Part shown: piece by piece, positions 1 to 20,600 of the stretch | How positions within the stretch are numbered: position 1 is the first letter of the stretch | Layout of the letters: each line of letters begins with the position of its first letter | The notes under the pieces: generated by a model | The model's database searches: none | What the model was told of the DNA's origin: nothing | What the model saw: only the letters and a program-made list of their open reading frames with translations | Assembly (NCBI RefSeq): GCF_003315245.1 | Contig: NZ_QNRT01000005.1 | Coordinates: 62,001 to 126,000, forward strand | DNA: 64,000 bases | Source of the DNA: Arenicella xantha | GTDB taxonomy: Bacteria; Pseudomonadota; Gammaproteobacteria; Arenicellales; Arenicellaceae | Direction: 5' to 3' | Position numbers and translations under genes: made by a program

Positions 1-1805
1 CCCTCACTGCCTGGTAACCATGCTGCGACGAACGCATCAGACGCATTCAATTCAGCATTAACCCACATCGGACGACCCGAAATAAACACTGATACAACGG
101 GTATGTTTTGTGCTTTTAGGGTTCGTAGTAGCTTGAGGTCGGATTTGATTCCGGCTTGATAGTCGAGGGTCTTAATGTCGCCATTGCCTTCGGCATAAGG
201 TTCTTCGCCAAACACGACTATGGCGACATCGGGTCGTTGCTGATAGTTGCCATCTACTGCCAATTCAACCGAACCGCCGGCCGCCGAGACCGCATTCTCG
301 ATTCCGTCATAGATAGACGTGCCGCCGGGGAAGTCGGCATTCTTATTGCCGGTGCCCTGCCAGGTGATGGTCCAACCTCCAGACTGCTTGCCAATATTAT
401 GAGCCGCATCACCGGCAACCAAGATCCGCTGTTGCGGCTTTAGTGGCAATAACTGCTGATTGTTCTTCAACAATACCAATGACTCGCGCACCGCTTGCCG
501 AGCGATAGCTCGATGCTCAGGGGCACCGATAATTTCCAGTCGACCCGATAGCGCACGGTTGGCCGGACTCGGTTTACTAAAAACGCCAGCGCGGACTTTT
601 ACGCGCAAAATTCGGGTCACCGCGTCGTTAATGCGTGACATGGGTATTTCACCGCTTTGCGCCTGTTTGACGGTGTTGTGGAACAGTGGTTTCCAGGCAT
701 CGGATGGTGCCATGAAAACATCTAGGCCAGCGTTTATCGCTTTACTGCAATCGGCATTGGTGCATCCGTCTATTTGTCCATGACCTAACCAATCACCGAC
801 CACAAAGCCATCAAAGCCCATTTTATTTTTGAGAATGTCGGTGAGTAGATAGCGATGGCCATGCATCTTCTCGCCGTGCCAACTGTTGAATGAAGCCATT
901 ACAGATTGTGCGCCAGCCGATAAGCCGCCGACATAGCCTTGCGCATGGAGATCAAACAGGGCTTGTTCGTTATCAATGTTGTTACCTTGATCGATGCCGT
1001 TTTGAGTACCGCCGTCACCTAAGAAATGCTTAACAGTAGCGATGACATGGTCATCGTTTAGAAAGGTGTCATCGATTGACCCTTGCAAGCCTCTGACGAT
1101 CGCGGTTGAGTAGGACCGCACGATTTCTGGGTCCTCAGAATAGCCCTCGTAAGTGCGCCCCCAGCGATCATCACGAACCACCGCAACGGTCGGTGCGAAT
1201 ACCCAATCAATGCCAGTTGCCATTACCTCACGGGCCGTGGCGGAAGCAATGCTTTCGATTAACGTAGGATTGTTGGCGGCACCGAGGCCAATGTTGTGAG
1301 GGAATAAGGTCGCGCCTATTACGTTGTTGTGGCCATGTACTGCGTCGGTGCCCCAGATAGTGGGTATGGTCGAGCCATCCAATGAGTCGTCAATCGAGGC
1401 TTGGTACATCGCTTCGGCCAAGTCGATCCAATCAGATGGTGTCGCGTGTTTATTATTATTCGGAAACGCGCCACCACCATTTAAGTACGAACCGAAGCCA
1501 TAACGACGCATATCCTCCACCGATACGTCACGTATTTCAGGTTGAATCATTTGCGCGACTTTTTGCTCTAACGTCATGTCAGCCAAGATGCGAGCGACCT
1601 GCGTTTCGACTGCGGGGTCTTTAATGGCGCTGAGATCGAGGCTTGGCCATATTGACGGATCTCTAGCGCTGCTTGTTGGTGGTTGGGGCGTTTGTTCTGC
1701 TAGCTCTTGCTGATTGCAGCTCGATAGTAGCAACATGCACGTAAACACGGCGGTCAAAGGGCGTGTTCTATTTAGTCGGGAGGTTTTTGTGGTGGAATTA
1801 GTCAT
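1..1805 (-). CDS. GH3 beta-glucosidase/exo-beta-glucanase lipoprotein (3' end beyond window)
   Basis: Reading the minus strand from ATG at 1805 gives 601 uninterrupted codons that run off the left edge, so the C-terminus is missing. The N-terminus is a lipoprotein signal with lipobox LLSSC (Cys30). Residues from about 60 carry the GH3 N-terminal fold: ADMTLEQKVAQM, GTDAVHGHNN, the KHF motif, and GFDGFVVGDW, whose Asp338 is the expected catalytic nucleophile (many relatives have SDW where this has GDW). The second GH3 domain then starts (RESLVLLKNN). The family removes glucose from the non-reducing end of beta-1,3/1,4-glucans; the closest type is probably the ExoP/CdxA-like exo-glucanases. A lipoprotein location suggests it finishes oligosaccharides released by the GH16 enzymes nearby. 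Family assignment is firm; substrate is inferred from context. Confidence 0.92.
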   Translation of the reverse strand, partial: MTNSTTKTSRLNRTRPLTAVFTCMLLLSSCNQQELAEQTPQPPTSSARDPSIWPSLDLSAIKDPAVETQVARILADMTLEQKVAQMIQPEIRDVSVEDMRRYGFGSYLNGGGAFPNNNKHATPSDWIDLAEAMYQASIDDSLDGSTIPTIWGTDAVHGHNNVIGATLFPHNIGLGAANNPTLIESIASATAREVMATGIDWVFAPTVAVVRDDRWGRTYEGYSEDPEIVRSYSTAIVRGLQGSIDDTFLNDDHVIATVKHFLGDGGTQNGIDQGNNIDNEQALFDLHAQGYVGGLSAGAQSVMASFNSWHGEKMHGHRYLLTDILKNKMGFDGFVVGDWLGHGQIDGCTNADCSKAINAGLDVFMAPSDAWKPLFHNTVKQAQSGEIPMSRINDAVTRILRVKVRAGVFSKPSPANRALSGRLEIIGAPEHRAIARQAVRESLVLLKNNQQLLPLKPQQRILVAGDAAHNIGKQSGGWTITWQGTGNKNADFPGGTSIYDGIENAVSAAGGSVELAVDGNYQQRPDVAIVVFGEEPYAEGNGDIKTLDYQAGIKSDLKLLRTLKAQNIPVVSVFISGRPMWVNAELNASDAFVAAWLPGSE

Positions 1806-2057: not shown

Positions 2058-3227
2058 TTAGGTGCTTTGTGCATCTAGTTGCTTAGAGCGATATTGAGTC
2101 GGGGTCGCGCCTACTAGTTTTTTAAAGAACGTGTTGTACGTTGCTTTACTGTTAAAGCCGCATTCACCGGATATTTCGATCATGGTTTTATGCCGTTGTG
2201 CAGGATCTGAAAGTAAACGCTTTGCTTCTTCTATACGGTAGGAATTGACGAATTCGTAAAAATTAGTTTTGAAGTGATGCTTTATGGTTACCGATAAGGT
2301 GCGCGGATGCATGGAAAGTTGGTTAGCCAGTTGCTCCAAATTCAATAGGTGAATCAGGTGGGGCTTGTCAGTTTGCATATGCTGTTCGATGCGTTTGGTT
2401 AGTTCGTCATCGATTTTGAAGTTGGGCTCTTCTGCGTGGGCGGGCTCTTCGGTTAGGTGGTGGTCGAACAGAGTTGAACGCTGCAGGCTGTAAAACATTA
2501 ATGTGGTTATTAATGCGAAGGTTAAATAGTTTCCAGCCAAGCCCATATTGTTGAATATTGGGTCACTTAAATTCGGCGCGAAAAAGGTGATAATCAGCAC
2601 CACAACGACCCACACACGGACTATGGTGAATGCAATCACCAAGTAGCTAAGCCAGCCAAAGTCAATTTTTTCGATATTGGAAAATCGGTCTCGTATCTGT
2701 TGGCGTGCTTGGCGAATATCGATGATGCATAACACACCAAAAAATACGCGCAATATCTCTCGAACGCCATTGATTTTGCCTAACAGGGATGGAGTTTTTT
2801 GGTCTTGTTGTTGCTCGAGGAGCAATAATTTGGTTGCAATATCTTGGAAGTAGAATGAAATAAGAATATAGATAGTAAAGCCGATAGCTGGCAGTAGAAA
2901 CAGCAAATCAATTCGAGTCATGCGAAACTCTTTATACAGAATTGATCGGGTGTACCATAGCAAAAGAGGTCCTTCGAGCCAATAGCCGAGCTCAAATGCA
3001 TGAAACAAGCTGGGCGAAGTGGCTAACGCAATCTCGCGAAATGCTTCACCGTAATTCACTAGGATGTGCATTGGAATAACAACTTGCGCTAGAAAGAATC
3101 CGACTAAGAAGTAATCGCTCAAGTGGCGTTCGTGTTTTACGACCAGAATCAGCAGTACGAACAACATACTTTGAAAAGCAGTTGCTAGCAGCAAGGTGTC
3201 GTGAATGTTGAAAACCGGGTCGGACAT
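2058..3227 (-). CDS. Membrane-anchored AraC-family transcriptional regulator
   Basis: This 389-residue protein has about seven hydrophobic helices in residues 1-245 (for example FQSMLFVLLILVV and WLSYLVIAFTIVRVWVVVVLI), followed by a cytoplasmic AraC/XylS-type double helix-turn-helix at about 285-385 (LEQLANQLSMHPRTLSVTIKHHF, then GECGFNSKATYNTFFKKLVGATP). AraC proteins with a multi-helix membrane sensor are common next to TonB-dependent receptors and glycan enzymes. It is divergent from the TonB receptor across a 359-bp spacer, so it is the obvious candidate activator of that receptor and perhaps of the GH genes. The ligand cannot be read from sequence. Confidence 0.9.
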   Translation of the reverse strand: MSDPVFNIHDTLLLATAFQSMLFVLLILVVKHERHLSDYFLVGFFLAQVVIPMHILVNYGEAFREIALATSPSLFHAFELGYWLEGPLLLWYTRSILYKEFRMTRIDLLFLLPAIGFTIYILISFYFQDIATKLLLLEQQQDQKTPSLLGKINGVREILRVFFGVLCIIDIRQARQQIRDRFSNIEKIDFGWLSYLVIAFTIVRVWVVVVLIITFFAPNLSDPIFNNMGLAGNYLTFALITTLMFYSLQRSTLFDHHLTEEPAHAEEPNFKIDDELTKRIEQHMQTDKPHLIHLLNLEQLANQLSMHPRTLSVTIKHHFKTNFYEFVNSYRIEEAKRLLSDPAQRHKTMIEISGECGFNSKATYNTFFKKLVGATPTQYRSKQLDAQST

Positions 3228-3586: not shown

Positions 3587-6448
3587 ATGACTTCATTCGT
3601 ATCCATTGGGGATAAGACGAAGCTAGCGTCGGCCGTGTCGTCTGCGCTTTCGCCCCGTCGCACTGCCATGCTGAGCGCATTAGTCGCCGGTGTGCTTGCT
3701 GCCCCACAGGCCAGTTACGCTCAAGCAGACGCATCAGCGCAGCTTGAAGAGGTAGTCGTTACCGGCTATCGCAACAGTCTCGCACGTGCCGCTGACGTAA
3801 AACGTAATGCCAGCGGTGTTGTTGACGCCATATCTGCTCAAGACATCGGGGTTTTTCCAGACACTAACCTAGCTGAGTCACTGCAACGTATAACCGGTGT
3901 ATCCATTGACCGTTCACGCGGTGAAGGCAGCAAAGTAACGGTGCGTGGCTTTGGGCCAGCATTTAACCTAGTTACGCTGAATGGTCGTCAAATGCCGACA
4001 CATGACGGCGATAACCGTTCATTCGATTTCGCTGACATTGCCTCGGAAGGCATCGCTGGCGTACAAGTCTATAAAACTGGTGACGCGTCGGTTGCGACTG
4101 GTGGTATCGGCGCCACGATCAATATTCAGACCACTCGTCCACTCGACGCGCCTGGGCTCAAGTCGGTTATGACGCTGAAGGCAGTGCATGACACCTCGAC
4201 TACTTCAGGCGATGACTTAACGCCGGAATTATCTGGGATCTACAGCAATACTTTTGCCGACGATACTATTGGTGTTGCTATTAGTGGTAGTTACCAAAAA
4301 CGAGATAACGGCGTTAATACCGCGACGGTTGGCGACTACAACAACTTTGCTGGCACGGTTGACCAAGATTGGGGCGCGGGCACAGCTCAATGGGGCGGTT
4401 TGCCGCGTGATGATAATCAAATTAACCGACCTGCTGACTCTGATATTTACGCTGTTCCGCAGAGTATTGGCTATGAGTTGGCCGAATTTAGTCGAGAGCG
4501 TTTAAACGGTCAACTTACCGTTCAATGGCGCCCTACTGACAATGTGACAACCACGGTTGATTACACCTACTCTGAAGTCGACTACGAGCGCACTTTTAGC
4601 AACTACTCAGGATGGTTTAACTTTGGTGGTGTGCAGTCTGAATATTCTGACGGGCCGATTGCTTCGCCGCTGGTCTACACTGAGTTTGGTGTTGCGCCTG
4701 ACTTTGCGATGGCAGCTGGCCGTGACGGCGTTAAGACAGAAAATAATTCACTTGGTTTTAATGTCGACTGGCAAGTGACTGACCGTTTGACAGTAGAGTT
4801 TGATGCGCACAGCTCAGAAGCGCAGAGCGGTGCGAGTGGTAATAATGGAACCGCTTCGCAACTTGCAATAGCCAGCTTCACCAGAGATCGTACTTCAGGA
4901 ATTTTTGGTGGTGACCTACCTATATTAAACCTAGGTTTAAGCGGTCCGCTGGATCCTAACGATTTGATTGTGACAGGCAGTGTGTTTGACAACAAAGCGA
5001 CCAAAATGGAAATCCAACAAGTCGCGGCCAATGCCACATTTGATCTAAACGATACATCGGCTATTAATTTCGGCGTACAACTGTCGGAAGTTGATAACCG
5101 TTCGCAATTCTCGAATGTGCAGCGTGATACTTGGGGCGGTACTACTCAGCCTGGTGACATTGCCGACCTCGTGACACCGGCCTCGGCGGCTGGTGCGTTT
5201 GACCAAATATCCAACGGCGATGATCCTCGTCGCCAAAGTGACTTCTTTGTCTTTGACATTGATGAGCTAGCTGCGCGGACTGAAGCATTGGGGGCCACGC
5301 AATCGACCGGTGGTGACTGTGGCACAGGTTTATGCCCGAGTTCAACATTTACGACTGACCGTATCACCAACGAAGAGTCGACCGCATTGTATGTGCAAAT
5401 TGACTTGGATCGTGAGTTAGGCGCCATCCCCGTCAATATTAAGGCCGGCATACGCTATGAAGAAACCGATGTTGAATCATTGGCGCTGGTGCCAACTTAC
5501 ACATCAGTAGTACAGCAAAGCGACAATGAGTTCAGCGCAATTCAAGCGGTAGATGCCAGCGGTGCTGCGATTCAAGATTTTACTCGTTTGACCGGTAGCT
5601 ATGATTATCTGTTGCCGAATCTAGATATTAAGTTCGACTTAACTGACAACGTAGTAGCGCGAATTTCCTATAGTGAATCAATTACTCGACCAGGATATCG
5701 CGATATTCAGGGCGGACTCACAATTGAGCAATTAATTCGAGTGAGTGGCGGTAACGGAAATCGTGGCAATCCAAATTTGTTGCCATTCGAGTCGCAGAAC
5801 ATTGATTTATCGCTAGAGTATTATTTTGGTGATGCTGATTACGCGTCGGTGGGTTACTACAGTAAAGATGTTGAAAACTTTATTGGCACGTCGATCGTGC
5901 AAGACGAAGTTTTATTCGCTAATTTGATTCATCCAGCAACAGGTGCGCCAGTCACGTTTGATGTGACAGTTCCGGTTAACCAAGAAGACGCATCGATCGA
6001 TGGTTGGGAGTTCGCGGTTCAAAAAGCGTTTGGTGATTCTGGTTTTGGTGTGATCGCCAATGCGACTGTGGTCGACAGTGATGTTGCTTACGATAACTTG
6101 AGTTTGGAGTCACAGTTCGTATTAACTGGGCTAAGTGACTCGGCCAATCTTGTTGGCTTTTATGAGAATGATAAATTTCAAGTAAGGCTGGCTTACAACT
6201 GGCGCGATGATTTCTACAATGGTATTGCTGGCGCAGCAGCTGGTACGCCTGGTCCGGTTAACTTTGAATCATTCGGACAATGGGATCTTAGTGCACGATA
6301 TCATGTGAGCGACAATCTGACGGTATTCGTCGAAGGTTTGAACATTACCGAAGAAACGGTAAGAACCTACGGTCGTAGTGAGTTGCAGGTTATTCAGGCC
6401 TATCAAACCGGTGCACGTTATAACTTTGGAGTGCGCTACGCCTTTTAG
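3587..6448 (+). CDS. TonB-dependent receptor (Xanthomonas/Caulobacter carbohydrate type)
   Basis: This 953-residue outer-membrane receptor has a signal peptide ending near SYAQA (about residue 46). A TonB box LEEVVVTG follows at about residue 54, then a plug domain with RITGVSIDRSRGEG, VRGFGPAFNLVTLNGRQMP and GGIGATINIQT. The large beta-barrel ends in the terminal aromatic YAF. The plug motifs and length fit the TonB-Xanth-Caul class (TIGR01782-like), which imports oligosaccharides. Neighbouring GH3 and GH16 genes suggest beta-glucan oligomers as ligand; this is inference. It is transcribed alone up to a strong terminator at 6531-6578, with the halogenase genes beyond. Confidence 0.93.
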   Translation: MTSFVSIGDKTKLASAVSSALSPRRTAMLSALVAGVLAAPQASYAQADASAQLEEVVVTGYRNSLARAADVKRNASGVVDAISAQDIGVFPDTNLAESLQRITGVSIDRSRGEGSKVTVRGFGPAFNLVTLNGRQMPTHDGDNRSFDFADIASEGIAGVQVYKTGDASVATGGIGATINIQTTRPLDAPGLKSVMTLKAVHDTSTTSGDDLTPELSGIYSNTFADDTIGVAISGSYQKRDNGVNTATVGDYNNFAGTVDQDWGAGTAQWGGLPRDDNQINRPADSDIYAVPQSIGYELAEFSRERLNGQLTVQWRPTDNVTTTVDYTYSEVDYERTFSNYSGWFNFGGVQSEYSDGPIASPLVYTEFGVAPDFAMAAGRDGVKTENNSLGFNVDWQVTDRLTVEFDAHSSEAQSGASGNNGTASQLAIASFTRDRTSGIFGGDLPILNLGLSGPLDPNDLIVTGSVFDNKATKMEIQQVAANATFDLNDTSAINFGVQLSEVDNRSQFSNVQRDTWGGTTQPGDIADLVTPASAAGAFDQISNGDDPRRQSDFFVFDIDELAARTEALGATQSTGGDCGTGLCPSSTFTTDRITNEESTALYVQIDLDRELGAIPVNIKAGIRYEETDVESLALVPTYTSVVQQSDNEFSAIQAVDASGAAIQDFTRLTGSYDYLLPNLDIKFDLTDNVVARISYSESITRPGYRDIQGGLTIEQLIRVSGGNGNRGNPNLLPFESQNIDLSLEYYFGDADYASVGYYSKDVENFIGTSIVQDEVLFANLIHPATGAPVTFDVTVPVNQEDASIDGWEFAVQKAFGDSGFGVIANATVVDSDVAYDNLSLESQFVLTGLSDSANLVGFYENDKFQVRLAYNWRDDFYNGIAGAAAGTPGPVNFESFGQWDLSARYHVSDNLTVFVEGLNITEETVRTYGRSELQVIQAYQTGARYNFGVRYAF

Positions 6449-6614: not shown

Positions 6615-8177
6615 ATGCAACGATCCGTGAGAAATATCGTCATTGTTGGCGGCGGCACAGCTGGATGGCTGACTGCCGGCATTCTTGCCAGCCATTATTC
6701 TGACGATCCCGACACTGGCTTAACGATAAGCTTGGTGGAATCACCTGATGTCGCGACAATCGGCGTTGGCGAAGGTACTTGGCCATCGATGCGGACGACT
6801 TTGCAGAAAATAGGCATTAGCGAAACTGAATTCATGCGTGCATGCGATGTGAGTCTGAAGCAAGGTTCGCGGTTCAATAGCTGGGTAACTGGCGCGAACG
6901 ATTATTACTATCATCCGTTTTCTATGCCGCAGGGCTACAGCGAATTTAATTTGGTTCCCTTTTGGCAAACGGTGCGTGAGCAAGTCAGTTTTACTGATGC
7001 TGTTTCACCACAAGGTCAATTGGCTGATCGTGGCTTGGCGCCAAAGCAGATAAGCACGCCAGAGTACGCCTTCCAAGTGAACTATGGCTATCATTTGGAT
7101 GCCGGAAAATTTGCCGAGTTTTTGCGCAGACATTGCACTGAAAAGCTTGGTGTTAAACACATTTCCGATCATGTGCAAACCGTACACACTCATCCAAACG
7201 GTGATATTAACGGTGTCCACACTAGTCAGCACGGCTTAGTGACTGGTGATTTATTCGTTGATTGCACTGGTTTTAACGGGTTGTTGATCGATAAACACTA
7301 CGAAATTCCCTTTAACAGTGTCGCCGATACCTTATTCAACGATCGCGCATTAGCCGTGCATGTGCCTTATCAGCGCGACAATGAGCCGATCGCATCAGCG
7401 ACGCTATCGACAGCACAGAGTGCTGGCTGGATATGGGACATTGGGCTGCCGTCACGGCGCGGTGTAGGGCATGTGTATTCAAGTGAGTTTACCAGTGACG
7501 AAGCGGCTGAAGTTGAGTTGCGACAGTATCTAGAAGCGCTGGTGGGGCGGCGTCAAGCGCATGAGTTGACGGTTCGAAAGATCCAATTCAAGCCCGGTCA
7601 TCGCGCATCTTTCTGGCACCGAAACTGCGTGGCTATTGGGCTTTCTGCTGGCTTTGTCGAGCCGCTTGAAGCATCGGCTTTAGTGTTGGTGGAATACGCT
7701 GCCAATATGCTTGCCGAGCAGCTACCCGCGAACCGCGACGTTATGGATATCACCGCTAAGCGTTTTAATCATAAATTCGCTTATCGATGGCAACAAATCA
7801 TCGAATTTTTAAAGCTACACTATGTGCTAAATCAACGTGATGACGCAGCTTACTGGCAAGCGCATCGTCACCAAGACTCAGTTCCCGACAGCTTGCGAGA
7901 GAAGTTAAAGGTATGGCGTCATCAAGCTCCGTGGCATCTCGATACGCCGCATATTGATGAGTTGTTTCCGTCCGCAAGTTATCAATATGTGTTGTACGGC
8001 ATGGGGTTTGTTACCTATCCGCAGTCGTTGGAGGCGCGTAATGCTAGCCAACAATTAGCGCAAGCCAACCAGCTGTTGCATGACAATGCTAAGCGTACCG
8101 CGTCGTTGCTGAACGCTATGCCAAATAACCGTGAGCTCATCAACAAGGTTGCCGAGTTCGGTTTTCAAAAAATATAA
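6615..8177 (+). CDS. Flavin-dependent (tryptophan-type) halogenase, paralogue 1
   Basis: This 520-residue protein belongs to the Trp_halogenase family (PF04820 type). It has the FAD-binding GGGTAGW at 12-18, the conserved GVGEGTWPS at 50-58, and Lys82 in SLKQGSRFNSW, aligned with the catalytic Lys79 of PrnA. The GLSAGFVEPLEAS motif carries the Glu that aligns with PrnA Glu346. The halogenase tryptophan motif is divergent (GWIWDIGLP instead of WxWxIP). Such enzymes need reduced FAD and halide and make hypohalous acid and a lysine haloamine. No flavin reductase lies nearby. It is first of four tightly spaced genes (21, 15 and 34 nt gaps) with SapC, cupin and a second halogenase, a neighbourhood known beside sugar TonB receptors. 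Substrate unknown; no indole or NRPS genes are seen. Confidence 0.9.
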   Translation: MQRSVRNIVIVGGGTAGWLTAGILASHYSDDPDTGLTISLVESPDVATIGVGEGTWPSMRTTLQKIGISETEFMRACDVSLKQGSRFNSWVTGANDYYYHPFSMPQGYSEFNLVPFWQTVREQVSFTDAVSPQGQLADRGLAPKQISTPEYAFQVNYGYHLDAGKFAEFLRRHCTEKLGVKHISDHVQTVHTHPNGDINGVHTSQHGLVTGDLFVDCTGFNGLLIDKHYEIPFNSVADTLFNDRALAVHVPYQRDNEPIASATLSTAQSAGWIWDIGLPSRRGVGHVYSSEFTSDEAAEVELRQYLEALVGRRQAHELTVRKIQFKPGHRASFWHRNCVAIGLSAGFVEPLEASALVLVEYAANMLAEQLPANRDVMDITAKRFNHKFAYRWQQIIEFLKLHYVLNQRDDAAYWQAHRHQDSVPDSLREKLKVWRHQAPWHLDTPHIDELFPSASYQYVLYGMGFVTYPQSLEARNASQQLAQANQLLHDNAKRTASLLNAMPNNRELINKVAEFGFQKI

Positions 8178-8198
8178 AAGTATTAACTGGAAGAAACT

Positions 8199-8924
8199 AT
8201 GACTAATTATGTGCTTCTTAATCAAGCTGAACACGCGAAGCTCAGAGTGATTACCGACCGATCCGCTGAGTATGGTGATGCGGTAAATTTCGTAATGACG
8301 TTTCCATTTGAATTTCGCAATATCCAGGCATGTTACCCAATCTTCTTTCAGAAAGATCCAAATACGGGCATGGTGTATCCGGTTGCTTTACTCGGATTTG
8401 AGCAGCGCGAAAACTTATTTTTGACGGAATCCGGCTGGAACGCCAGCTATCTTCCATTAATGATTAAACGGCAGCCTTTCCTAATTGGATTTCAGGCTGA
8501 CGCAAGTGATCCGGCTAAGCGCAATGCCATGGTATCAATAGATATCGATAACCCCAGAGTAAACGAAGAAAATGGTGAGGTACTGTTTTTGGAGCATGGC
8601 GGTACCAGCGAGTTCTTGCAAGAAGCAACCCAGTCGCTAGAGCTTATTCATCAGGCACATCAGCATAGCGAGAAGTTTGTTAACAAGCTTATTGAGTTGG
8701 AGCTACTCGAGGCATTTACTCTCGATATCAAGTTGAATAACGGCGTTGAAAACCAGCTGATGGGCTATTACACAATCAACGAAGAGAAACTGCAGGCACT
8801 CACTGGTGATATTCTTGGTGAATTGAGTCAAGCAGGATTCTTGCAGCCCATATTTATGATATTGGCATCTCACGCGCGCATCGCCACCTTGGTCGATCTA
8901 AAAAATAAGTCAATAGTCGCCTAG
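8199..8924 (+). CDS. SapC-like protein
   Basis: This 241-residue protein matches the SapC family (PF07277 type): YGDAVNFVMTFPFEFRNIQACYPIFFQKD near the N-terminus, then YPVALLGFEQRENLF and the central YLPLMIKRQPFLIGF. The family is named after a Campylobacter S-layer locus gene, but its biochemical role is unknown. I see no signal peptide or membrane helix. In many proteobacteria it occurs beside Trp-type halogenases and JmjC-like cupins downstream of carbohydrate TonB receptors, exactly as here. The start follows a GGAAGAA ribosome-binding site, 21 nt after the halogenase stop. Family confident, function open. Confidence 0.88.
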   Translation: MTNYVLLNQAEHAKLRVITDRSAEYGDAVNFVMTFPFEFRNIQACYPIFFQKDPNTGMVYPVALLGFEQRENLFLTESGWNASYLPLMIKRQPFLIGFQADASDPAKRNAMVSIDIDNPRVNEENGEVLFLEHGGTSEFLQEATQSLELIHQAHQHSEKFVNKLIELELLEAFTLDIKLNNGVENQLMGYYTINEEKLQALTGDILGELSQAGFLQPIFMILASHARIATLVDLKNKSIVA

Positions 8925-8939
8925 CTGAGGCACACTATC

Positions 8940-9944
8940 ATGACATCGCACAAGGCCATTCAGGAGATCGTATTTGAATCTGACTCGGCGTTACCGGAAT
9001 GGTTATCAGGAGTCTCGCAACCAATTGTTTTACGAGGGCTTGTAAGACATTGGCCGATTGTTCAAGCCGGTCTCAGCTCGTCGCGTGCGGCAGCCGATTA
9101 TCTACTTGGTTTTGATCAAAACCTACCATTAACCGTGTATCAAGCGGCGGCCGAGGCCGACGGGCGTATTTTCTATAATGACGATATGACCGGTTTTAAT
9201 TTTGATCGGACTCGCCAGACCTTAAGCAAAGTGTTGGAGGCTTTGTTTGCGCTCGATGCTAGTCAGCCGATGCCAAGCTATTATGTGGGCTCTACCTTAA
9301 TCGACCGCTGGTTGCCGGGGTTTCGGCAACACAATGACTTGTCGATGGGTAAGACTGAGCATCTAATGAGTCTCTGGTTGGGCAACCGCAGTCGCATCGC
9401 AGCGCATTACGATTTTCCCTGTAACATTGCGTGTTCCGTGGTTGGGCGTCGGCGCTTTACGCTGTTTGCTCCTGATCAGGCAGATAATTTATACATCGGT
9501 CCGCTGGACTTAACGCCATCAGGCCAACCGATTAGTTTGGTCGATGCTGCACAGCCCGATTTCGGTCGGTTTCCCAAATACCGCGCGGCATTGGAGTCAT
9601 CGATTAGCGTTGAATTAGAACCTGGTGACGCATTGTATATTCCGAGTATGTGGTGGCATCAAGTTGAATCATTAGCGTCGTTTAATGTGTTGATCAATTA
9701 TTGGTGGCGAACCACGCCGGCGTATATGGGCTCACCGCTAAACGCGTTGCAACTCGCGGTTTTAAGCTTGCGCGACTTACCTCCTGAGCAGCGCACTATC
9801 TGGCGAGATATTTTTGATCGGTACGTGTTCGAGCAAGGTGATGAAGATTGGCAGCACATACCTGAGCACGCGCGTGGAGTGTTGAAAGAGATCGACGAAG
9901 CAACAGCCAACAACATTCGAGCCCAACTACGCCGATTGTTGTAG
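8940..9944 (+). CDS. JmjC-like cupin_8 oxygenase, paralogue 1
   Basis: This 334-residue cupin-like protein resembles the JmjC/FIH family of Fe(II)/2-oxoglutarate hydroxylases. The likely iron ligands are His156 and Asp158 in AAHYDFPCN and His240 in IPSMWWHQVESL. Family landmarks also include VGRRRFTLFAPDQ, NLYIGPLD and FNVLINYWW. The N-terminus has the typical PIVLRGLVRHWPIV strand. Members hydroxylate amino-acid side chains or small molecules; the target here is unknown. It lies in the halogenase unit, 15 nt after SapC, with a GAGG ribosome-binding site. A homologue is at 13178-14233. Confidence 0.88.
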   Translation: MTSHKAIQEIVFESDSALPEWLSGVSQPIVLRGLVRHWPIVQAGLSSSRAAADYLLGFDQNLPLTVYQAAAEADGRIFYNDDMTGFNFDRTRQTLSKVLEALFALDASQPMPSYYVGSTLIDRWLPGFRQHNDLSMGKTEHLMSLWLGNRSRIAAHYDFPCNIACSVVGRRRFTLFAPDQADNLYIGPLDLTPSGQPISLVDAAQPDFGRFPKYRAALESSISVELEPGDALYIPSMWWHQVESLASFNVLINYWWRTTPAYMGSPLNALQLAVLSLRDLPPEQRTIWRDIFDRYVFEQGDEDWQHIPEHARGVLKEIDEATANNIRAQLRRLL

Positions 9945-9978
9945 TTGGTGATGTCGGTAAAACATAACGAGGTACACG

Positions 9979-11469
9979 GTGGAACACAAAAAAATTAATA
10001 AAGTCATTGTGGCCGGAGGCGGCACTGCCGGTTGGATGGCGGCGGCGTCGCTGGCCAAACTGTTGGGTAAGACTCTAGACATTTCGTTGATTGAGTCCGA
10101 CGACATTCCCACGGTTGGGGTTGGCGAAGCCACCATACCCACTATGCTGACCTTGCATGAGTTGCTTGGGATAAACGAGCGTGAATTTGTGGCGGAGGTT
10201 AATGGTACCTTCAAGCTTGGCATCTCGTTTGAGAATTGGCGAGATGTGGATCAAGACTATATCCACTCGTTCGGCTTTACTGGCAAGGATTGCTGGGCGG
10301 CGGGATTTCAGCATTTTTGGTTGAAGGGACAGCAATTGGGGATCGCGAAAGACTTTGGTGAGTACTGTGGCGAGCTGATTGCTGCGCGCCAGAATAAATT
10401 TGCTGTGACTCCTAAGAATGGCTTGAATTATGCCTATCATATTGATGCTGGGCGCTACGCGGCTTATCTGCGGAAGCTCGCCGAACAACACGGTGCAAAA
10501 CGTATTGAGGGGAAGATTGTCGAGGTTGGTCTGAATAGCGATAGCGGTGATATTGAATCACTCACGCTTGCCTCTGGCCAGGTAGTCGAAGGCGATCTAT
10601 TTATTGATTGCAGTGGCTTTAGAGGTCTGTTGATAGAGCAAGCGTTGCACACAGGCTATGATGATTGGTCGCACTGGTTGCCGTGCGACAGTGCCATAGC
10701 GGTACAAACCGAATCACTTGCAGCACCGATTCCCTACACCCGTTCAATCGCGCGTGGAGCGGGCTGGCAGTGGCGTATTCCGTTGCAATCGAGAGTGGGT
10801 AATGGCTTGGTATTCTGTAGTCGTTATCTGTCGGACGATGATGCTAAGCAGCTTTTGCTCGACAACCTTGAAGGTGCGCCGATCAATGAGCCGCGTGTGA
10901 TCAAGTTTAGAACCGGTACACGTCGTAAACATTGGAATAAAAATTGTATTGCACTCGGGCTTTCCAGCGGTTTTATTGAACCCTTGGAGTCCACCAGTAT
11001 TCATTTAATTCAGCGTGGTATTACTCGGCTGATGCAAATGTTTCCCTACGATGGAATTCGAAAGCCTGATGTCGCCGAGTTTAATGCGCAAATGGATGCT
11101 GAAATCGTGAACATACGCGACTTCATCATTCTTCATTACCATGTAACTAATCGTGACGACACGCCGTTCTGGCGGTTTTGTCGCGCTATGGATATTCCTG
11201 ATACATTGCGCCACCGTATTGAGCTGTTCAAGCAAACGGGGCGCGTGTTTAAAGGGCCAAACGAACTATTTGGGGAGAACTCTTGGACCCAAGTAATGTT
11301 GGGTCAGGGTTTGTTACCAGAGCAGTATCATCCGATCGTGAACATGATGAGCGACGACGAGTTGAGCGCGTTCCTACGCGGCATTGATCAGACCGTTACC
11401 AATCAGGTTCGTCAGTTACCGAGTCATCAACAGTTTATCGATCACTACTGTAAGTCGAGCGCAGGCTAA
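9979..11469 (+). CDS. Flavin-dependent (tryptophan-type) halogenase, paralogue 2
   Basis: This 496-residue protein starts with GTG after an ACGAGGT ribosome-binding site. It carries all the canonical family features: GGGTAGW at 13-19, GVGEATIPT at 47-55, Lys79 in TFKLGISFENW (the same number as PrnA Lys79), WQWRIP at 263-268 (the WxWxIP halogenase motif), and GFIEPLESTS with Glu337-Ser338 matching PrnA Glu346-Ser347. It is therefore likely catalytically competent. It is closer to characterised indole-halogenating enzymes than paralogue 1 at 6615, so the two probably have different substrates. It is last gene of the unit; a hairpin overlaps its stop codon. Confidence 0.92.
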   Translation: MEHKKINKVIVAGGGTAGWMAAASLAKLLGKTLDISLIESDDIPTVGVGEATIPTMLTLHELLGINEREFVAEVNGTFKLGISFENWRDVDQDYIHSFGFTGKDCWAAGFQHFWLKGQQLGIAKDFGEYCGELIAARQNKFAVTPKNGLNYAYHIDAGRYAAYLRKLAEQHGAKRIEGKIVEVGLNSDSGDIESLTLASGQVVEGDLFIDCSGFRGLLIEQALHTGYDDWSHWLPCDSAIAVQTESLAAPIPYTRSIARGAGWQWRIPLQSRVGNGLVFCSRYLSDDDAKQLLLDNLEGAPINEPRVIKFRTGTRRKHWNKNCIALGLSSGFIEPLESTSIHLIQRGITRLMQMFPYDGIRKPDVAEFNAQMDAEIVNIRDFIILHYHVTNRDDTPFWRFCRAMDIPDTLRHRIELFKQTGRVFKGPNELFGENSWTQVMLGQGLLPEQYHPIVNMMSDDELSAFLRGIDQTVTNQVRQLPSHQQFIDHYCKSSAG

Positions 11470-12382: not shown

Positions 12383-13120
12383 CTAATTTGCCAGTTGGAT
12401 AGTGTGTTTTAGCAAGTTTATGTCGCCAGCTTTACCATGTCCAGGCACTACCAGTTTAGCGTCTTGGTAGCGAGTTTTGACTCGATTGACGCTATTCGCC
12501 CATTGGTCTAACGCGGCCTCTCCCGTGTAGCCTAGGGTGTTAGCTTCAAGGCTGCGAATAAGGCATCCTCCGAATAATATTTTTGACTTTGGTAACCACA
12601 CCACTACGTTGTCAGCAGTGTGCCCACCGCCTGGGTAATACGTTTCTAGCAGGCCATCGAGTACCGTTGCAGCGGGCACGTCGAGGGTATTATTGGCAGT
12701 TTCCTCACCTCGTTGCTCAAGGAAATGATTTGTTTGAGCTGATGCGTAGGTTGCTATATTGCGTTGATTTAGCCATTTGATACCGGCGGTGCGATCAGCG
12801 TGAGAATGTGTCGATATGCTGCCGGCCAAGTCAACGCCTTGTTGCGAGATCCAGTCGACAAGCTGTTGCGTGTCTGCCTCTGACCAAGGAGTGTCCACAA
12901 TATACGCCATTTGTTCATGAACAACGACTAAGCCATTGGCGCTGACCAACCCAAATCCATCAACTTGTCGGTACGACTTATGAAGATACACGTTCTCTTC
13001 AAGTGCACTAATCTCGAATTCAGGAACGTCGTCGCCAGCGAGCGCATTGCTTGTGATAACTAAGCTTGCTGCAAGCAAATTGACGACAACGATGGTTATT
13101 AGCAGGGTTGGCAATCTCAT
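12383..13120 (-). CDS. Subclass B1-like metallo-beta-lactamase
   Basis: This 245-residue secreted protein has an N-terminal signal segment (about 1-28). The fold and motifs match B1 enzymes such as IMP and VIM along the whole length. The Zn1 ligands are His105, His107 (THSHADRTAG) and His167 (YPGGGHTADNVVVW). The Zn2 ligands are Asp109, Cys186 (ILFGGCLIRS) and His228 (LVVPGHGKAGD). VDTPWSEADTQQLVDWI and KWLNQRNIATYAS are B1-type. Arg189 replaces the usual Lys224 near the substrate carboxylate, and the active-site loop differs (EANTLGYTG). B1 enzymes hydrolyse penicillins, cephalosporins and carbapenems in the periplasm; actual activity here is untested. It is a chromosomal gene without integron or IS signs, between oxygenase genes. 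A non-lactamase hydrolase of the same superfamily is possible, but Cys186 argues for B1. Confidence 0.85.
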   Translation of the reverse strand: MRLPTLLITIVVVNLLAASLVITSNALAGDDVPEFEISALEENVYLHKSYRQVDGFGLVSANGLVVVHEQMAYIVDTPWSEADTQQLVDWISQQGVDLAGSISTHSHADRTAGIKWLNQRNIATYASAQTNHFLEQRGEETANNTLDVPAATVLDGLLETYYPGGGHTADNVVVWLPKSKILFGGCLIRSLEANTLGYTGEAALDQWANSVNRVKTRYQDAKLVVPGHGKAGDINLLKHTIQLAN

Positions 13121-13177: not shown

Positions 13178-14188
13178 TTAATTAAGTCGAGATTTGAGAA
13201 ACGCGAAGACTTGTTGACGTTGTTCAGGTGAGAGTCGAGTGATTACATCCATGACATCGTTGGGCAGATGTTCGGCTGGGTCACCGGTCGTATGAAATAC
13301 GAAATAGTCAAACAAATGGCGCCAGGCATGGCGCTGGTCAGTGTCGAGCTGGGCAATTGATAACATGCTGTGCATCAAGCTGTTGTTGGGCGATACCCCA
13401 TGCTCAGCGATTCCTCCCCACCAATAGTTGATTAGCACATTAAATGGATCCAAGGATTCAACGGCATGCCACCAAGGTGTTGGAATGTAGATAACGTCAC
13501 CAGGTTCAAGGGTTGCATGCACGGCGGCTTTCAGTGCTTTTTCAAACAGCGGGAACCGGCTCATATCGGGGTTGCGTAGATCAACTAAGCTAGTAGGCAC
13601 GCCGCCCGGTGAGTCTAACATTGGACCGACGTATAGGTTGGCAACTTGTTCAGGTGGAAACAAAGTGAATTTGCGACGTCCGCTGACGACTGCCGCCAAA
13701 TTGAAATTAACATCGTAGTGTGGCGCTACCATGGCGCGATTGCCGAGCCACATAGTGGGTTCAACGGAAGCATCGAGTAGTGGCAAGGCATGACGTTCGA
13801 CGAAACCTGACAAGGTGGTTTTAACCGGAGCCGCTTGCACCGCAACAGCATGTGGGTTTGCCACCTGTGTTAACGCCAGCAGTTGATCGACGCTGTTAGA
13901 TAAATTTGCTTGGCGTCGTTCGAAATTGACGCCATTAAATTTTTTGTCGTAGGAAAACCCACCGTTAATATCCGGCGCGCCAACAATGGTATACACCGCT
14001 TGCCCGCTGTCTAGGGATTTCAGATAGTTCGCCACGGCCGGCGCGCCGCTATGGCTGGCTTGTACTATTGGCCAATCACCAACCAAACCGCGAAACAGCG
14101 CGGGCTTATTGAGCGGTATTATCTCGCTGTGAAATTGCGAGTGTGTCACATTGTGCCATTCTGGCACTGTGCAAATAGGTTGCTTCAT
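13178..14188 (-). CDS. JmjC-like cupin_8 oxygenase, paralogue 2
   Basis: A homologue of the gene at 8940. Counting from the upstream ATG at 14233, the iron ligands are His172, Asp174 (PHYDVNFN) and His256 (IPTPWWHAVESL). Shared landmarks are SGRRKFTLFPPEQ, NLYVGPML and FNVLINYWW. I prefer the ATG at 14188 (MKQPICTVPEW): homology to the paralogue begins there, while the 15 residues from 14233 (MPDRYLASQ...) look non-conserved. Neither start has a strong ribosome-binding site. It is a predicted Fe(II)/2OG hydroxylase of unknown target. The metallo-beta-lactamase gene follows 57 nt downstream, perhaps co-transcribed. Confidence 0.83.
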   Translation of the reverse strand: MKQPICTVPEWHNVTHSQFHSEIIPLNKPALFRGLVGDWPIVQASHSGAPAVANYLKSLDSGQAVYTIVGAPDINGGFSYDKKFNGVNFERRQANLSNSVDQLLALTQVANPHAVAVQAAPVKTTLSGFVERHALPLLDASVEPTMWLGNRAMVAPHYDVNFNLAAVVSGRRKFTLFPPEQVANLYVGPMLDSPGGVPTSLVDLRNPDMSRFPLFEKALKAAVHATLEPGDVIYIPTPWWHAVESLDPFNVLINYWWGGIAEHGVSPNNSLMHSMLSIAQLDTDQRHAWRHLFDYFVFHTTGDPAEHLPNDVMDVITRLSPEQRQQVFAFLKSRLN

Positions 14189-14616
14189 TAGGTTGTATCG
14201 TCTCGGTTGACTAGCCAAGTATCGATCTGGCATCCCGTAGATTTGATTACATGCTATTAGAATACTTCTTAGAGATCATTCGGGCTTATTTAGAGTGGCA
14301 GTCAAACTATAAAAGTTTTCTGTCAGTGGTTTACTGATGCATGTGGTAGAGTGTGAGTCAGGTGCCGCCGTGATCATAGCATGCTGTCAGTACAATGATT
14401 GTCTCGTAGCGCCAGTGTAAGTTATAACTTAGTGGGTATATTTAGACCTTAAGCTATGCTACTAGTAAATGGTTTAAATTATTAAGCCGACTGTTTAGTA
14501 CACACACTTATCGGTACATGGTCCTGTCGTGCTTTAAACTCAGACCCTTTGTTTTAGTTGGGCCTGAGTTTAATTTGTGAACGTCAAATTTAGGTTGCGT
14601 GAACCCTATCTAGCGC
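14189..14616. other. Intergenic stretch, apart from a hairpin no gene seen
   Basis: About 430 bp between two minus-strand genes. It should contain the promoter of the cupin gene and the 3' region of the beta-helix gene. The only clear structure is the inverted repeat at 14534-14573; I see no coding potential. Confidence 0.5.
14534..14573 (-). terminator. Long hairpin downstream of the beta-helix gene
   Basis: TTAAACTCAG (14534-14543) pairs perfectly with CTGAGTTTAA (14564-14573), and an inner CCC/GGG extends the stem. It lies 44 bp beyond the stop of the minus-strand gene at 14617. No T-run follows on that strand, so it may terminate weakly or protect the mRNA 3' end. Confidence 0.55.
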
Positions 14617-16156: not shown

Positions 16157-17554
16157 ATGATGACGCAGCGTTTTGCTATTTTCAATTTAGTCACTTTTAT
16201 AAGTGTGTTCCTAATTTTTGGTTATCAAATCCCAACATGGGCGGCGGCGAGTAACTATCCGGTGGCCTGGGCGCTGAACGTTGGGGGCGAGGCGTACACT
16301 GGCGAAGACGGTATTGAATATCGGGCGGATGACACCGATGCGAGCAAGGTTGGAAACATTTCGATTGTGCAAGGAGCGCAAGATCAGACGGTGTTGCGCT
16401 CTTATCGTCGTGGGATGTTCACTTTGAATCAGCCGCTAGAAAATGGCTTGTATACCGTGACTCTATTATTTGCCGAACCGGAGGATTTGGCGATTGGTGA
16501 CCGTCGCTTTGATGTAAAGATTCAAGATGTGTTGGCCTTACAGAATTTTGACATTGTTCAAGCTCGTGGTGGTAACTCTCGAGCGGCGGTTATTCGGTCG
16601 GTGCCGAATGTGGCGGTGAAGCACGGTGTATTAGCCGTGACACTTGAATCGATTCAAGGCGAACCGGTGCTGAATGGGATCGTGGTGCGGCCCGCGTACG
16701 TCGCTGCTGACGATTGGACCTTGGTATGGGGCGATGAATTTGATTACCTTGGTGCGCCGGATCCGCAAAAATGGTCGTATGACCTGTGGCCAGCAGGCAA
16801 GGTGAACCAAGAACTGCAGGCTTATACTGATCAGACTAAAAATGTACGAGTTGAGAATGGTCGCTTAATAATTCAAGCCCACAAGGAAGCGGTTGATCAA
16901 CCGTCGGCGAATCAGCCACAGTACACTTCTGGCCGTATCCATTCGGCTAACAAAGGAGATATCTTATATGGTCGTGTTGAGGTAAAAGCTAAATTGCCGG
17001 CTGGACAAGGGACCTGGCCGGCGATTTGGATGCTCCCAACGGATGCCTTTCGGTACGCAACAAGTTGTGGCCCCAAGGCTGAATGGCAAGGTAGCGATCG
17101 ATGTGATGCGTGGCCGAATTCGGGCGAGATCGATATTATGGAACATGTGGGCTACGACATGAATCGAGTACACGGAACGGTGCATACCAAAGCGTATTAT
17201 TGGGTTAACGGCGAGCAACGCCAGGCTACGGTTGAAGCGGAGTCGGTAGCTCAACGTTTTCATCTTTATGCACTTGAATGGTCGCCTCAGCGCCTGGATA
17301 TTTTTTATGATGAGCAACTTTACTTCACGTATTTAAATCAAGATGAAGGCTGGCAGGCTTGGCCGTTTGATCATCCGTTCCACGTGATCTTAAACTTGGC
17401 CGTTGGCGGTAATTGGGGCGCAGCCGGTGGGCCGGTCGATAATTCGGTTATGCCCGCCACGTTGGAAGTGGATTATGTGCGGTTTTATAAACCCAAAGCT
17501 CAAGAGAAACTCAACGTTAGCGAGGCGCTAAAAGCCCCGGCGAATGTTAAGTAA
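16157..17554 (+). CDS. Secreted laminarinase: malectin-like domain plus GH16
   Basis: This 465-residue protein has a signal peptide ending near TWAAA (about residue 31). A malectin-like beta-sandwich spans about 36-178 (AWALNVGGEAYTG, GLYTVTLLFAEPE, RRFDVKIQ, LNGIVVRPA). A GH16 catalytic domain spans about 187-448 (WTLVWGDEFDYLGAPDPQKW; ELQAYTDQTKNVRVENGRLIIQA). The catalytic GEIDIMEHVG gives Glu324 as nucleophile, Asp326 and Glu329 as acid/base. LILNLAVGGNWG-type and VDYVRFYK endings are typical for laminarinase-like endo-beta-1,3(4)-glucanases. It probably cuts laminarin outside the cell or in the periplasm, feeding the TonB receptor. AGGAG precedes ATGATG at the start. It converges on the second GH16 gene. 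Confidence 0.93.
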   Translation: MMTQRFAIFNLVTFISVFLIFGYQIPTWAAASNYPVAWALNVGGEAYTGEDGIEYRADDTDASKVGNISIVQGAQDQTVLRSYRRGMFTLNQPLENGLYTVTLLFAEPEDLAIGDRRFDVKIQDVLALQNFDIVQARGGNSRAAVIRSVPNVAVKHGVLAVTLESIQGEPVLNGIVVRPAYVAADDWTLVWGDEFDYLGAPDPQKWSYDLWPAGKVNQELQAYTDQTKNVRVENGRLIIQAHKEAVDQPSANQPQYTSGRIHSANKGDILYGRVEVKAKLPAGQGTWPAIWMLPTDAFRYATSCGPKAEWQGSDRCDAWPNSGEIDIMEHVGYDMNRVHGTVHTKAYYWVNGEQRQATVEAESVAQRFHLYALEWSPQRLDIFYDEQLYFTYLNQDEGWQAWPFDHPFHVILNLAVGGNWGAAGGPVDNSVMPATLEVDYVRFYKPKAQEKLNVSEALKAPANVK

Positions 17555-17640: not shown

Positions 17641-20600
17641 CTATAAAGACTCAAGGAATCGTAACATTGCGTTCTTATCGCTTTGAGAGAGGCCTTGGTA
17701 GTTTAGTTTGGCGTTCCTAGCCTCGCCATCGTGCCATAGAATGGCCTCTTCAATCGAGCGAGCTCGGCCGTCATGCAAATACGCATGATGCGGTGTACAG
17801 ACTTCCCCGCCTTCTAAGCCAGTTACATTGCTCACGCCGCCAGTGACGCATGCGGCCAGACCTAAACCCCACAACGGAGTAGTTCGCCATTCACGCCCAC
17901 TGGCATCGCCCTCGCCTAAGTTGTCAGCCAGACCATCCCCCATGTCGTGTAATAACAGGTCGGAATACGGGTGGATAACTTGGTCGCGGGCTTCCGCTAA
18001 CGGATGAAACTCGCTAGTTTGCAGGCTTGGCGTATGACAGCCAGCGCAGCCGGATTGGGTAAATAGTGATTTGCCGTTAACGATAGTTTGGTCTTCGTTG
18101 CCGCTTTCCCAACCACGTTGTGGACGTACGCCTAAGCCGGTTAAGTAAGTTACCATTTTGTCGACGTGTTGCTCCGCTAATATAGGACTATTGTTGTTAC
18201 AGCCGCTTTGCGCTGCGCCACAGTCCAAGTTCGGAAGCAGTTGCGTACGGACTCCCATATCAGTATTTAATGCAGCCGAGACTTGGTGATGCAAACTAGT
18301 GGTGGCGGCTTTCCAGCCAAACCGTCCGAGTCGAGTGAGTTGAGGGTTTGCCGGGTCGATAATCCGGTTGGCGCGCCCGGAAATTCCATCACCATCAATG
18401 TCGTTAGGATCTTCTTGTGCCAAAATAGTCGTTTCTGGAATCGCTTCTAATAAGCCTAGGCCAACTAATCGCGGTGCGATTCGGGCAGAAAATCGCTGCG
18501 GTGCGCCATTACTAAATTGGTAGGTCGGTGCGCGCAAGCCGTCGGCCAACTCACTCCAAAAGGCAATCGATACATCGCCCTCACCGCCACCATTGACTTG
18601 CTTGGGTTGCAGCACGCGACCAAACTCTGGGTGTGGCTGGCCATCGGCGCCAGCTACCTTAAAAACCCAGCGGTCTAATAGCTCGTTATTATTGGCTACT
18701 GGTGCGCTACCATTGCGTTCGTGGCATCCAGAGCAACGTTGATTGATATAAGCTTGTGATCCGACTAGATTGACAACCTCGCTTAGCACGCCGTTCTCGG
18801 GGTCTTCGTCATGCGTGCCGTCGATAAAGGATGAATGTATTAGACGTCGACCTTCAAGAAATTTTTGTCCATTTAAATAGCCTAGATTAGTCGCCATTTG
18901 CATAAAATGGTCGTTAGGCTCATCGGTGTACTGATAGTGAATAGTGGTGTTGCCGCCGAGCCAATACGACTCTGGTATTTCGCGACTGTCTTCCTGAAAG
19001 TCGGCTGCGCCTTGCACAAACTCGCCAGCATTTTCGGTATACCATGGCACGACGCCTTTGCCGACGATGTAGAGATAAGTGGTGCCATAGTAGTTGGCTT
19101 GGCCACGCGGGATATCACCTCGGCTGAATTGGCTGATCTCAAATTCGAGGCGATCGCCTAGCTGGATCTCGCGATTGTATTGGCGATTGAGATTGTCTGA
19201 CTTGGTATAGTTCCAGTAAGTTCCATCAAAACCGACAAATTCCATGCCCATGCCGCCGTGGTACTCAGCCACAGTATTGCGACCAAGATACCACCAACGG
19301 TTTTCAGCCTCGCTATCGTTCAACGGCCATAGCGTGCGTACGTTCATTACGATGCTGTCGCCGCCTTTGGCGACGTAATCGATAATTTCAATATTGCTAG
19401 CGCGGTGCTCAAAGTAAAACTTGATGTAATGATCGTAGGATTGATATTGGTCTTCACGCGCGTGACGTGTGCGAGGTCGATCAGAGAATCGCGTTACTAG
19501 CGCATCACCGCGATCATATTGGGTGTCGGGTTCGAGTGCAGTATTTGCGTTAAACAAGGGCGTGATATCGCCGGTCGAGGTCGGTATTGGGCAGCCGATA
19601 ACGTCGACTTGCGTTGTTGGCGGTGTGTTGGGGCAGTTGTCTTGTGAATCCGCAACACCATCGCCATCGCTGTCTGCCGCCGAATTGGCTGGGCTTCCCA
19701 TCACCTGCATTTCGAAGATTGAATAGCCCCAATCGTTACCTTGGCTGCGCGTTTGACCAAGCATTCTTACGTAGCGAGCAAGGCCGGCAACCGTACGCGT
19801 ATCTGTGCGCGCACCAAATGCTCCATTGCTGAGGCTAAACAAGGTAGTCCAGTTGCTGCCGTCGAGCGAACCTTGCACGCTGTAACTGGCAGCGTTAGCC
19901 GCTTCCCAATCAATGCTCACGGCAGATAAATTAAACGTTTGTCCGAGGTCGACCGATAGCCATGTAGGGTCAACACTATGGCTGGATTCCCAGCGGGTAG
20001 CTAGGTCGCCATCGAATGCTAAGCTCGCTGATTGCAGAGCACTGGATGCCGTAGCCGGTTGTTGTAGGGCTATATTGGTATCGATAGGATTGTTGGTGTT
20101 GTGTGTGTATGTTGCTGCGGCTGTGTCGACGACTTGATTACTGCTTGGGTCAAGGTAGGTAAACCAGTACGTCAACTGATCGTTGTCCACCAGGTTATGA
20201 ACTTGGAACGTGTTGCGATCATTAGCTTGAGTCATACGATGGTTCTGTTGCGCGCCGCCATTTTTGCTGTAGTGCACGTCGGCCCATCCGGATGTCGCCA
20301 CATAGAATTCTAAGGTGGTGTTGTTGAGTTTGTTGGCTCCGAATGGATTGCTTTGTGAAATTGGGCAGCCGCTGGCGTCAACGGCGACGCCGTTTGGCGT
20401 ATTAGCACAGAGGTCAATGGAATCTAAAATACCATCGCCATCACTGTCGACGGCTTGTTGCTCACGGAGCGTGAACTCGAGCCAATTCAGGTTAAGTCCG
20501 CCGCCGGTAATGTCAACTCGCACGGTGTAACTACCCGCTAAGCTAATAGAAACTAGGCCGAGATCAAGGGTTTCGTAGGTTTGCCATCCGCCGGTATAGT

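Follow-up and report, generated by a model that had tools for sequence, protein, structure and literature searches.

A recurrent gene block pairing flavin-dependent halogenases, SapC and a Cupin_8 hydroxylase with TonB-dependent receptors in Arenicella xantha

The 64,000-nucleotide stretch of Arenicella xantha DNA analyzed here (contig NZ_QNRT01000005.1, positions 62,001 to 126,000; hereafter the window) carries, on the + strand between positions 3587 and 11469, a run of five genes encoding a TonB-dependent receptor (TBDR), a flavin-dependent halogenase (A), a SapC family protein, a Cupin_8/JmjC-like Fe(II)/2-oxoglutarate hydroxylase and a second flavin-dependent halogenase (B). The protein families of this block are already known; as a unit, it recurs across many genera and follows the receptor rather than the type of sugar genes nearby, and it may constitute a protein-modification module dedicated to the receptor, a reading to which we give a probability of about 0.42. 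No open paper was found that joins a halogenase, SapC and a TBDR, nor any on the operon or its function; the subscription literature lay outside this search, and a prior mention is possible.

Recurrence of the block behind TonB-dependent receptors

The leading gene (3587..6448, +) matches the receptor family TIGR01782 (TonB-Xanth-Caul) with 656.6 bits against a cut-off of 310 and encodes the putative substrate of the enzymes behind it. Halogenase A, a WIWDIGLP variant, lies at 6615..8177 (+) and halogenase B, with the motif WQWRIP, at 9979..11469 (+), both matching PF04820 over their full length (410.6 and 637.6 bits, respectively, against a cut-off of 21); between them lie the genes for SapC at 8199..8924 (+; PF07277, 227.3 bits against 28.9) and the Cupin_8 hydroxylase at 8940..9944 (+; PF13621, 238.1 bits). 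These profile matches bear out the first-pass annotation, which had placed two halogenases, SapC and a JmjC-like cupin at 6615-11469. A gap of 166 bp follows the receptor gene and the enzyme genes are then separated by 21, 15 and 34 bp; the medians across loci are 164 bp after the receptor and 34, 11 and 31 bp inside the block.

The genome of this Arenicella encodes eight full-length halogenases, seven full TIGR01782 receptors, two SapC proteins and five Cupin_8 proteins. All eight halogenases sit in TBDR-headed gene runs, at five receptor loci in total; seven of the eight lie in runs headed by a TIGR01782 receptor, as compared with 0.22 of eight expected from random placement, and the linkage is therefore more than chance, while the eighth follows a receptor from a different subfamily. 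A search of 109 genomes of the order yielded 86 halogenases, 65 of which have a TIGR01782 receptor no more than 6 kb away, a lower bound since only the best candidates per genome were scored, and all 65 are encoded on the same strand as that receptor; as the genomes with matches belong mostly to one genus, genome-level co-occurrence statistics are not independent. The association is looser in a second order, where 31 of 56 halogenases lie near a TIGR01782 receptor and 21 of them are co-oriented. When receptors of any type are counted, 217 of the 243 halogenase genes at all fetched loci have a TBDR on the same strand at a distance of up to 6 kb, and many of the remaining 26 lie at contig ends. 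The first-pass annotation had called the link of halogenation and hydroxylation to sugar TonB receptors recurrent and unexplained; its recurrence can now be expressed by this count.

A scan of the GTDB collection anchored on SapC, which brought in other genera, covered 80 SapC loci from across Gammaproteobacteria and recovered the order receptor, halogenase A, SapC, cupin, halogenase B at most of them, with the full five-gene order found in Shewanella, Colwellia, Rheinheimera, Paraglaciecola, Aliiglaciecola, Simiduia, Porticoccaceae, Woeseiaceae and NOR5-3, and block variants in Cellvibrio and in Kordiimonas, the latter without halogenase A. Caulobacter vibrioides, included in control searches, gave matches to every one of the profiles. 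Reduced or reordered forms comprise receptor-A-SapC, receptor-B, receptor-B-B-B and receptor-SapC-cupin-B-A; the simple gene caller overlooked SapC at some loci, and at the locus examined for this, L270, a six-frame search brought it to light. Two loci (L248 and L263) carry an additional protein between the receptor and halogenase A, DUF6445 (PF20043) in the former and a look-alike in the latter; an HxD...H pattern seen by inspection suggests that the DUF6445-type insert may be a further Fe/2-oxoglutarate oxygenase tied to receptors. Several Arenicella genomes (L116, L121, L133, L148, L172) encode SapC away from any nearby halogenase or TIGR01782 receptor, and this constitutes a second, unlinked SapC type.

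Catalytic features of the enzymes and the fold of SapC

Both window halogenases keep the Rossmann glycines (GGGTAGW), the catalytic lysine (LKQG / FKLG) and the catalytic glutamate (VEPLEAS / IEPLEST), and retention of the latter two residues, already noted in the first pass, holds in an alignment of 222 sequences for all 103 type A members and for all but about six of the 119 of type B. It had also been noted, correctly, that only the second halogenase keeps WxWxIP; this does not imply that halogenase A is inactive. Type A follows the pattern WxWxI(G/P/A)LP, a glycine stands at the point of departure from WxWxIP in 85 of 103 relatives, and WIWDIGLP itself occurs in the solved structure 2PYX, so that decay of halogenase A through an altered motif could be ruled out, the change being a subfamily feature common to most of the 103 relatives. 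Halogenase A is closest, over its entire length, to 2PYX (615 bits), 9LTB (492) and 9LU2 (442), solved "tryptophan halogenases" of type A for which no published function was located. The closest solved relatives of halogenase B are Xcc4156 (6Y1W, 678 bits) and BrvH (460 bits), along with 9LUQ. Judged by their residues, both window halogenases look active.

That the PF04820 proteins no longer halogenate, and instead serve as flavin hydroxylases or as redox or structural partners, is highly unlikely; the near-universal lysine and glutamate in both types argue against it, as do the close relatives of halogenase B that are active brominases. In its favor, non-catalytic roles occur in the family, and a degenerate halogenase devoid of the catalytic lysine and glutamate is retained in the middle of operons in which a receptor is followed by three halogenases. 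Such receptor-B-B-B operons occur in five genomes (L049, at 7910-9418 of that locus; L130, L177, L169 and L193), the second gene encoding the degenerate protein between two intact ones; all of these second genes lack the catalytic glutamate and most lack the lysine and the FAD glycines, which makes them a conserved pseudo-halogenase. Another degenerate halogenase is the second of two at L173; together with the pseudo-halogenases it accounts for the type B enzymes that depart from the conserved lysine and glutamate.

The iron ligands HxD...H of the Cupin_8 hydroxylase are present by inspection of its translation (AHYD, WWHQ). Among solved structures it comes closest to FIH, JMJD5 and JMJD7, and more weakly to others that include the tRNA hydroxylase TYW5 (C2orf60); the similarity covers only part of the protein. 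FIH, JMJD5 and JMJD7 hydroxylate proteins, and by its relation to FIH and JMJD5 the window enzyme may do so as well.

SapC takes its name from an S-layer/serum resistance namesake, and the name is not to be taken as a function. An AlphaFold model built with 60 relatives is confident (mean pLDDT 94.3); searched against the PDB with Foldseek, it gave no match below an E-value of 0.12, the best-ranked hits reaching TM-scores of no more than about 0.17 when normalized by query length, and a profile search of PDB sequences found no relative. With neither a fold nor a profile match, assignment of the SapC fold from the PDB was dropped; a confident model with no solved match makes SapC a ready target for structural work. 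Because of its constant company with receptor and enzymes, our guess is that SapC serves to present the receptor chain or as a scaffold for the enzymes.

The receptor as candidate substrate and the surroundings of the block

The halogenases, SapC and the hydroxylase have no signal peptide apparent by inspection, and they are thus expected to act in the cytoplasm. As the receptor crosses this compartment unfolded before reaching Sec, modification of the chain before export would be the simplest connection between the two. In the proposed mechanism, halogenases A and B would take reduced flavin from a general reductase and, together with the FIH-like hydroxylase, modify receptor side chains after translation and ahead of Sec export, while SapC would probably present the receptor chain or scaffold the enzymes. 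The likely targets of the halogenases would be outer-loop tryptophans lining the ligand entrance, Trp343 first, then Trp262/Trp269 and Trp516; bromo- or chloro-tryptophan at these positions could change sugar stacking, recognition by phages or toxins, or loop stability. The block itself, its recurrence, the shared strand, the intact catalytic residues and the indifference to sugar type are observations; which molecule is modified, in what sequence of steps, with what part for SapC and to what physiological advantage are inferences. The fuller version of this scheme, a widespread system that halogenates and hydroxylates outer-membrane receptors, with halogenated outer-loop tryptophans installed before export and SapC, a protein of unsolved fold, dedicated to the task as chaperone or scaffold, is more doubtful and is put forward tentatively.

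The AF2 model of the receptor shows the expected plug and barrel (pLDDT 85.2), and its fold matches in the PDB are TonB receptors. Trp343 (codon 4613..4615, +; NYSGWFNFGG) stands at the end of a barrel strand, which terminates at residue 343 in the model, on what the barrel topology indicates to be the extracellular side. The alternative sites are Trp262 and Trp269 (codons within 4370..4393, +; DQDWGAGTAQWGGLP), located in the outer loop preceding Trp343, and Trp516 (codon 5132..5134, +), at the base of another outer loop. Trp343, Trp516 and Trp872 are invariant among 39 full-operon receptors. Trp343 is present in 111 of 121 halogenase-linked receptors compared with 22 of 80 unlinked ones, a raw figure that falls to 82 of 104 upon realignment by another MAFFT mode.

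Several observations weigh against receptor modification. On the receptor tree, linkage to a halogenase switched only some 12 times, and of 10 independent pairs 1.8 had Trp343 going with linkage and 0.8 going against it; the association of Trp343 with halogenases, strong in raw frequency, is confounded by descent. The raw frequencies at columns G786, G421 and N392 show a difference at least as large, and 10 linked receptors lack Trp343, one of them (L119) having no tryptophan in either of the two loops examined. A few halogenases stand on long contigs with no receptor nearby (L139, L202), no modified receptor is reported in the literature searched, and the authors of the study on the receptor CciT and its companion dioxygenase CciO prefer ligand models to receptor modification (PMC12004947). 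Trp343 as proof that the receptor is the substrate was accordingly dropped as unsupported after phylogenetic control; it is the most promising candidate site and is not claimed as the target. Receptors of another subfamily were likewise dropped as an independent contrast, the homologues being too few.

In the window the block lies in a beta-glucan context, as the first pass had recognized: a GH3 gene (1..1805, -) runs off the left edge of the window, which holds part of it, and two GH16 enzymes identified by domain matches lie downstream, one with a malectin domain (16157..17554, +) and the other at 17641-22527 (-). At other loci the neighbors differ, with GH3 and kelch/DUF5060 at L049, amylases and a cyclomaltodextrinase at L051, and GH1 at L124. 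The sugar genes change while the enzymes stay, so that a glucan-specific role is unlikely; the enzymes track the receptor and not the type of sugar. The dependence on laminarin or glucan anticipated in the first pass finds no support as a general rule, and glucan-independent expression, which it had named as a refutation, would be a poor refutation criterion for a family found in such varied sugar contexts.

The same diversity bears on the possibility that the enzymes form a ligand-modifying module, acting on an aromatic small molecule that is imported, or made and re-imported (a phenolic or indolic glycan group, a carrier), as envisaged for CciT/CciO and PiuA/PiuC. Such models already exist for cytoplasmic oxygenases linked to receptors (PMC12004947), free indoles are substrates of Xcc4156 and BrvH (PMC7336383, PMC5945002), and the halogenases would be cytoplasmic. 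This is nonetheless an unlikely explanation: an aromatic ligand common to receptors with GH3/GH16, maltodextrin and GH1 neighbors is hard to envisage, and no aromatic pathway turned up in a scan of most of the larger ORFs of the window. The scan likewise found no NRPS, PKS or indole pathway, in keeping with what the first pass had reported. Among the roles it had left open, receptor modification fits best, while a phenolic or signal role has no genomic support. Independence of sugar type would equally be accounted for if the enzymes modified another protein common to these receptors (TonB/ExbB/ExbD, an inner-membrane permease or a periplasmic chaperone), as would the small number of halogenases away from receptors; we hold this to be quite improbable, since eight halogenases in five receptor loci of one genome suggest a pairing per receptor.

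A ribosomally synthesized and post-translationally modified peptide (RiPP) whose gene lies within or close to the block, and which the receptor re-imports, could also be the substrate, and the open site of BrvH, described as MibH-like (PMC5945002), would suit it. In-block gaps are, however, of only about 10-35 bp, the ORFs that lie between receptor and halogenase are not shared from one locus to another, and no RiPP maturation or export genes occur among the scanned neighbors, so that this explanation is hardly credible. The precursor peptide expected of a halogenase of the MibH kind was not found, there being no conserved small ORF in the block gaps across loci, and a small peptide substrate was dropped for that reason.

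Beyond the receptor-modification reading itself, other genes flank the block. An AraC-type regulator (2058..3227, -; PF12833), divergent from the receptor gene and recurrent in Arenicella relatives, likely controls it. A 2-oxoglutarate-Fe(II) oxygenase of family PF13640 (11509..12177, -; HxD...H by inspection), a possible accessory, converges on the block and is seldom present in relatives, with two matches including that of the window. A second Cupin_8 hydroxylase (13178..14233, -; PF13621, 205 bits) is also convergent, and a Cupin_8 gene placed right after halogenase B on the opposite strand recurs at L118, L120, L122 and most of L209-L218. Between these accessory oxygenase genes, 12383-13120 (-) encodes a subclass B1 metallo-beta-lactamase homologue of the DIM/SIM/IMP group (NF033088, 261.9 bits, cut-off 200; NF012145, 300.4 bits, cut-off 288), whose nearest solved structure is 4WD6 (302 bits) and whose zinc ligands are seemingly present by inspection. 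The 1628-residue product of 17641-22527 combines GH16, CBM6/CBM35, CBM56, F5/8C and a di-haem peroxidase-like (DHOR) domain in a single chain, and thus joins a glycanase to a redox domain of cytochrome type. Further away, a 3871-residue ORF (44430-56045, +) starts with an inverse-autotransporter beta domain and has no further Pfam match; this inverse-autotransporter-like character ruled it out as an NRPS or PKS. PADLOC gave no match, and the block was ruled out as a defense system.

Comparison with known systems

Many flavin halogenases are not part of any biosynthetic cluster and have no known native substrate; the pairing with TBDRs across many genera names a candidate. If receptor modification is correct, it would represent a new post-translational modification of bacterial transporters, give "orphan" indole halogenases a native role and provide a source of enzymes capable of halogenating tryptophan inside proteins.

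The closest known counterparts of halogenase B, Xcc4156 (6Y1W) and BrvH (6FRL), share its lysine, glutamate and WxWxIP motif. Both brominate indole and not free tryptophan, and in both studies a peptide or some larger molecule was put forward as the native substrate (PMC5945002, PMC7336383); BrvH is slow on indole, inactive on free tryptophan, and has an open active site said to resemble that of the peptide halogenase MibH (PMC5945002). The BrvH gene also adjoins a second halogenase gene (PMC5945002), like the window block; neither paper mentions TonB or SapC, and hence no receptor-SapC-cupin neighborhood is described there (PMC7336383, PMC5945002). MibH itself, from the NAI-107 pathway, halogenates tryptophan within a polypeptide, which is the mode proposed here; however, it serves a lanthipeptide pathway, whereas the window block has no peptide precursor.

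The cupin shares the HxD...H iron ligands of FIH, JMJD5 and JMJD7; in comparison, it is bacterial and receptor-linked, and resembles them over part of the protein only. A functional precedent is provided by CciT-CciO and PiuA-PiuC, in which a TonB receptor depends for its function on a cytoplasmic oxygenase of an adjacent gene (PMC12004947), and conserved synteny of this kind was found for the block. Those systems consist of iron receptors with one dioxygenase, whereas in the present one the receptors are of the sugar type and are accompanied by two halogenases, SapC and an FIH-like hydroxylase. CciT function strictly requires the cytoplasmic dioxygenase CciO encoded alongside it (PMC12004947), a precedent for a TonB-dependent receptor that depends on a cytoplasmic enzyme encoded by its neighbor.

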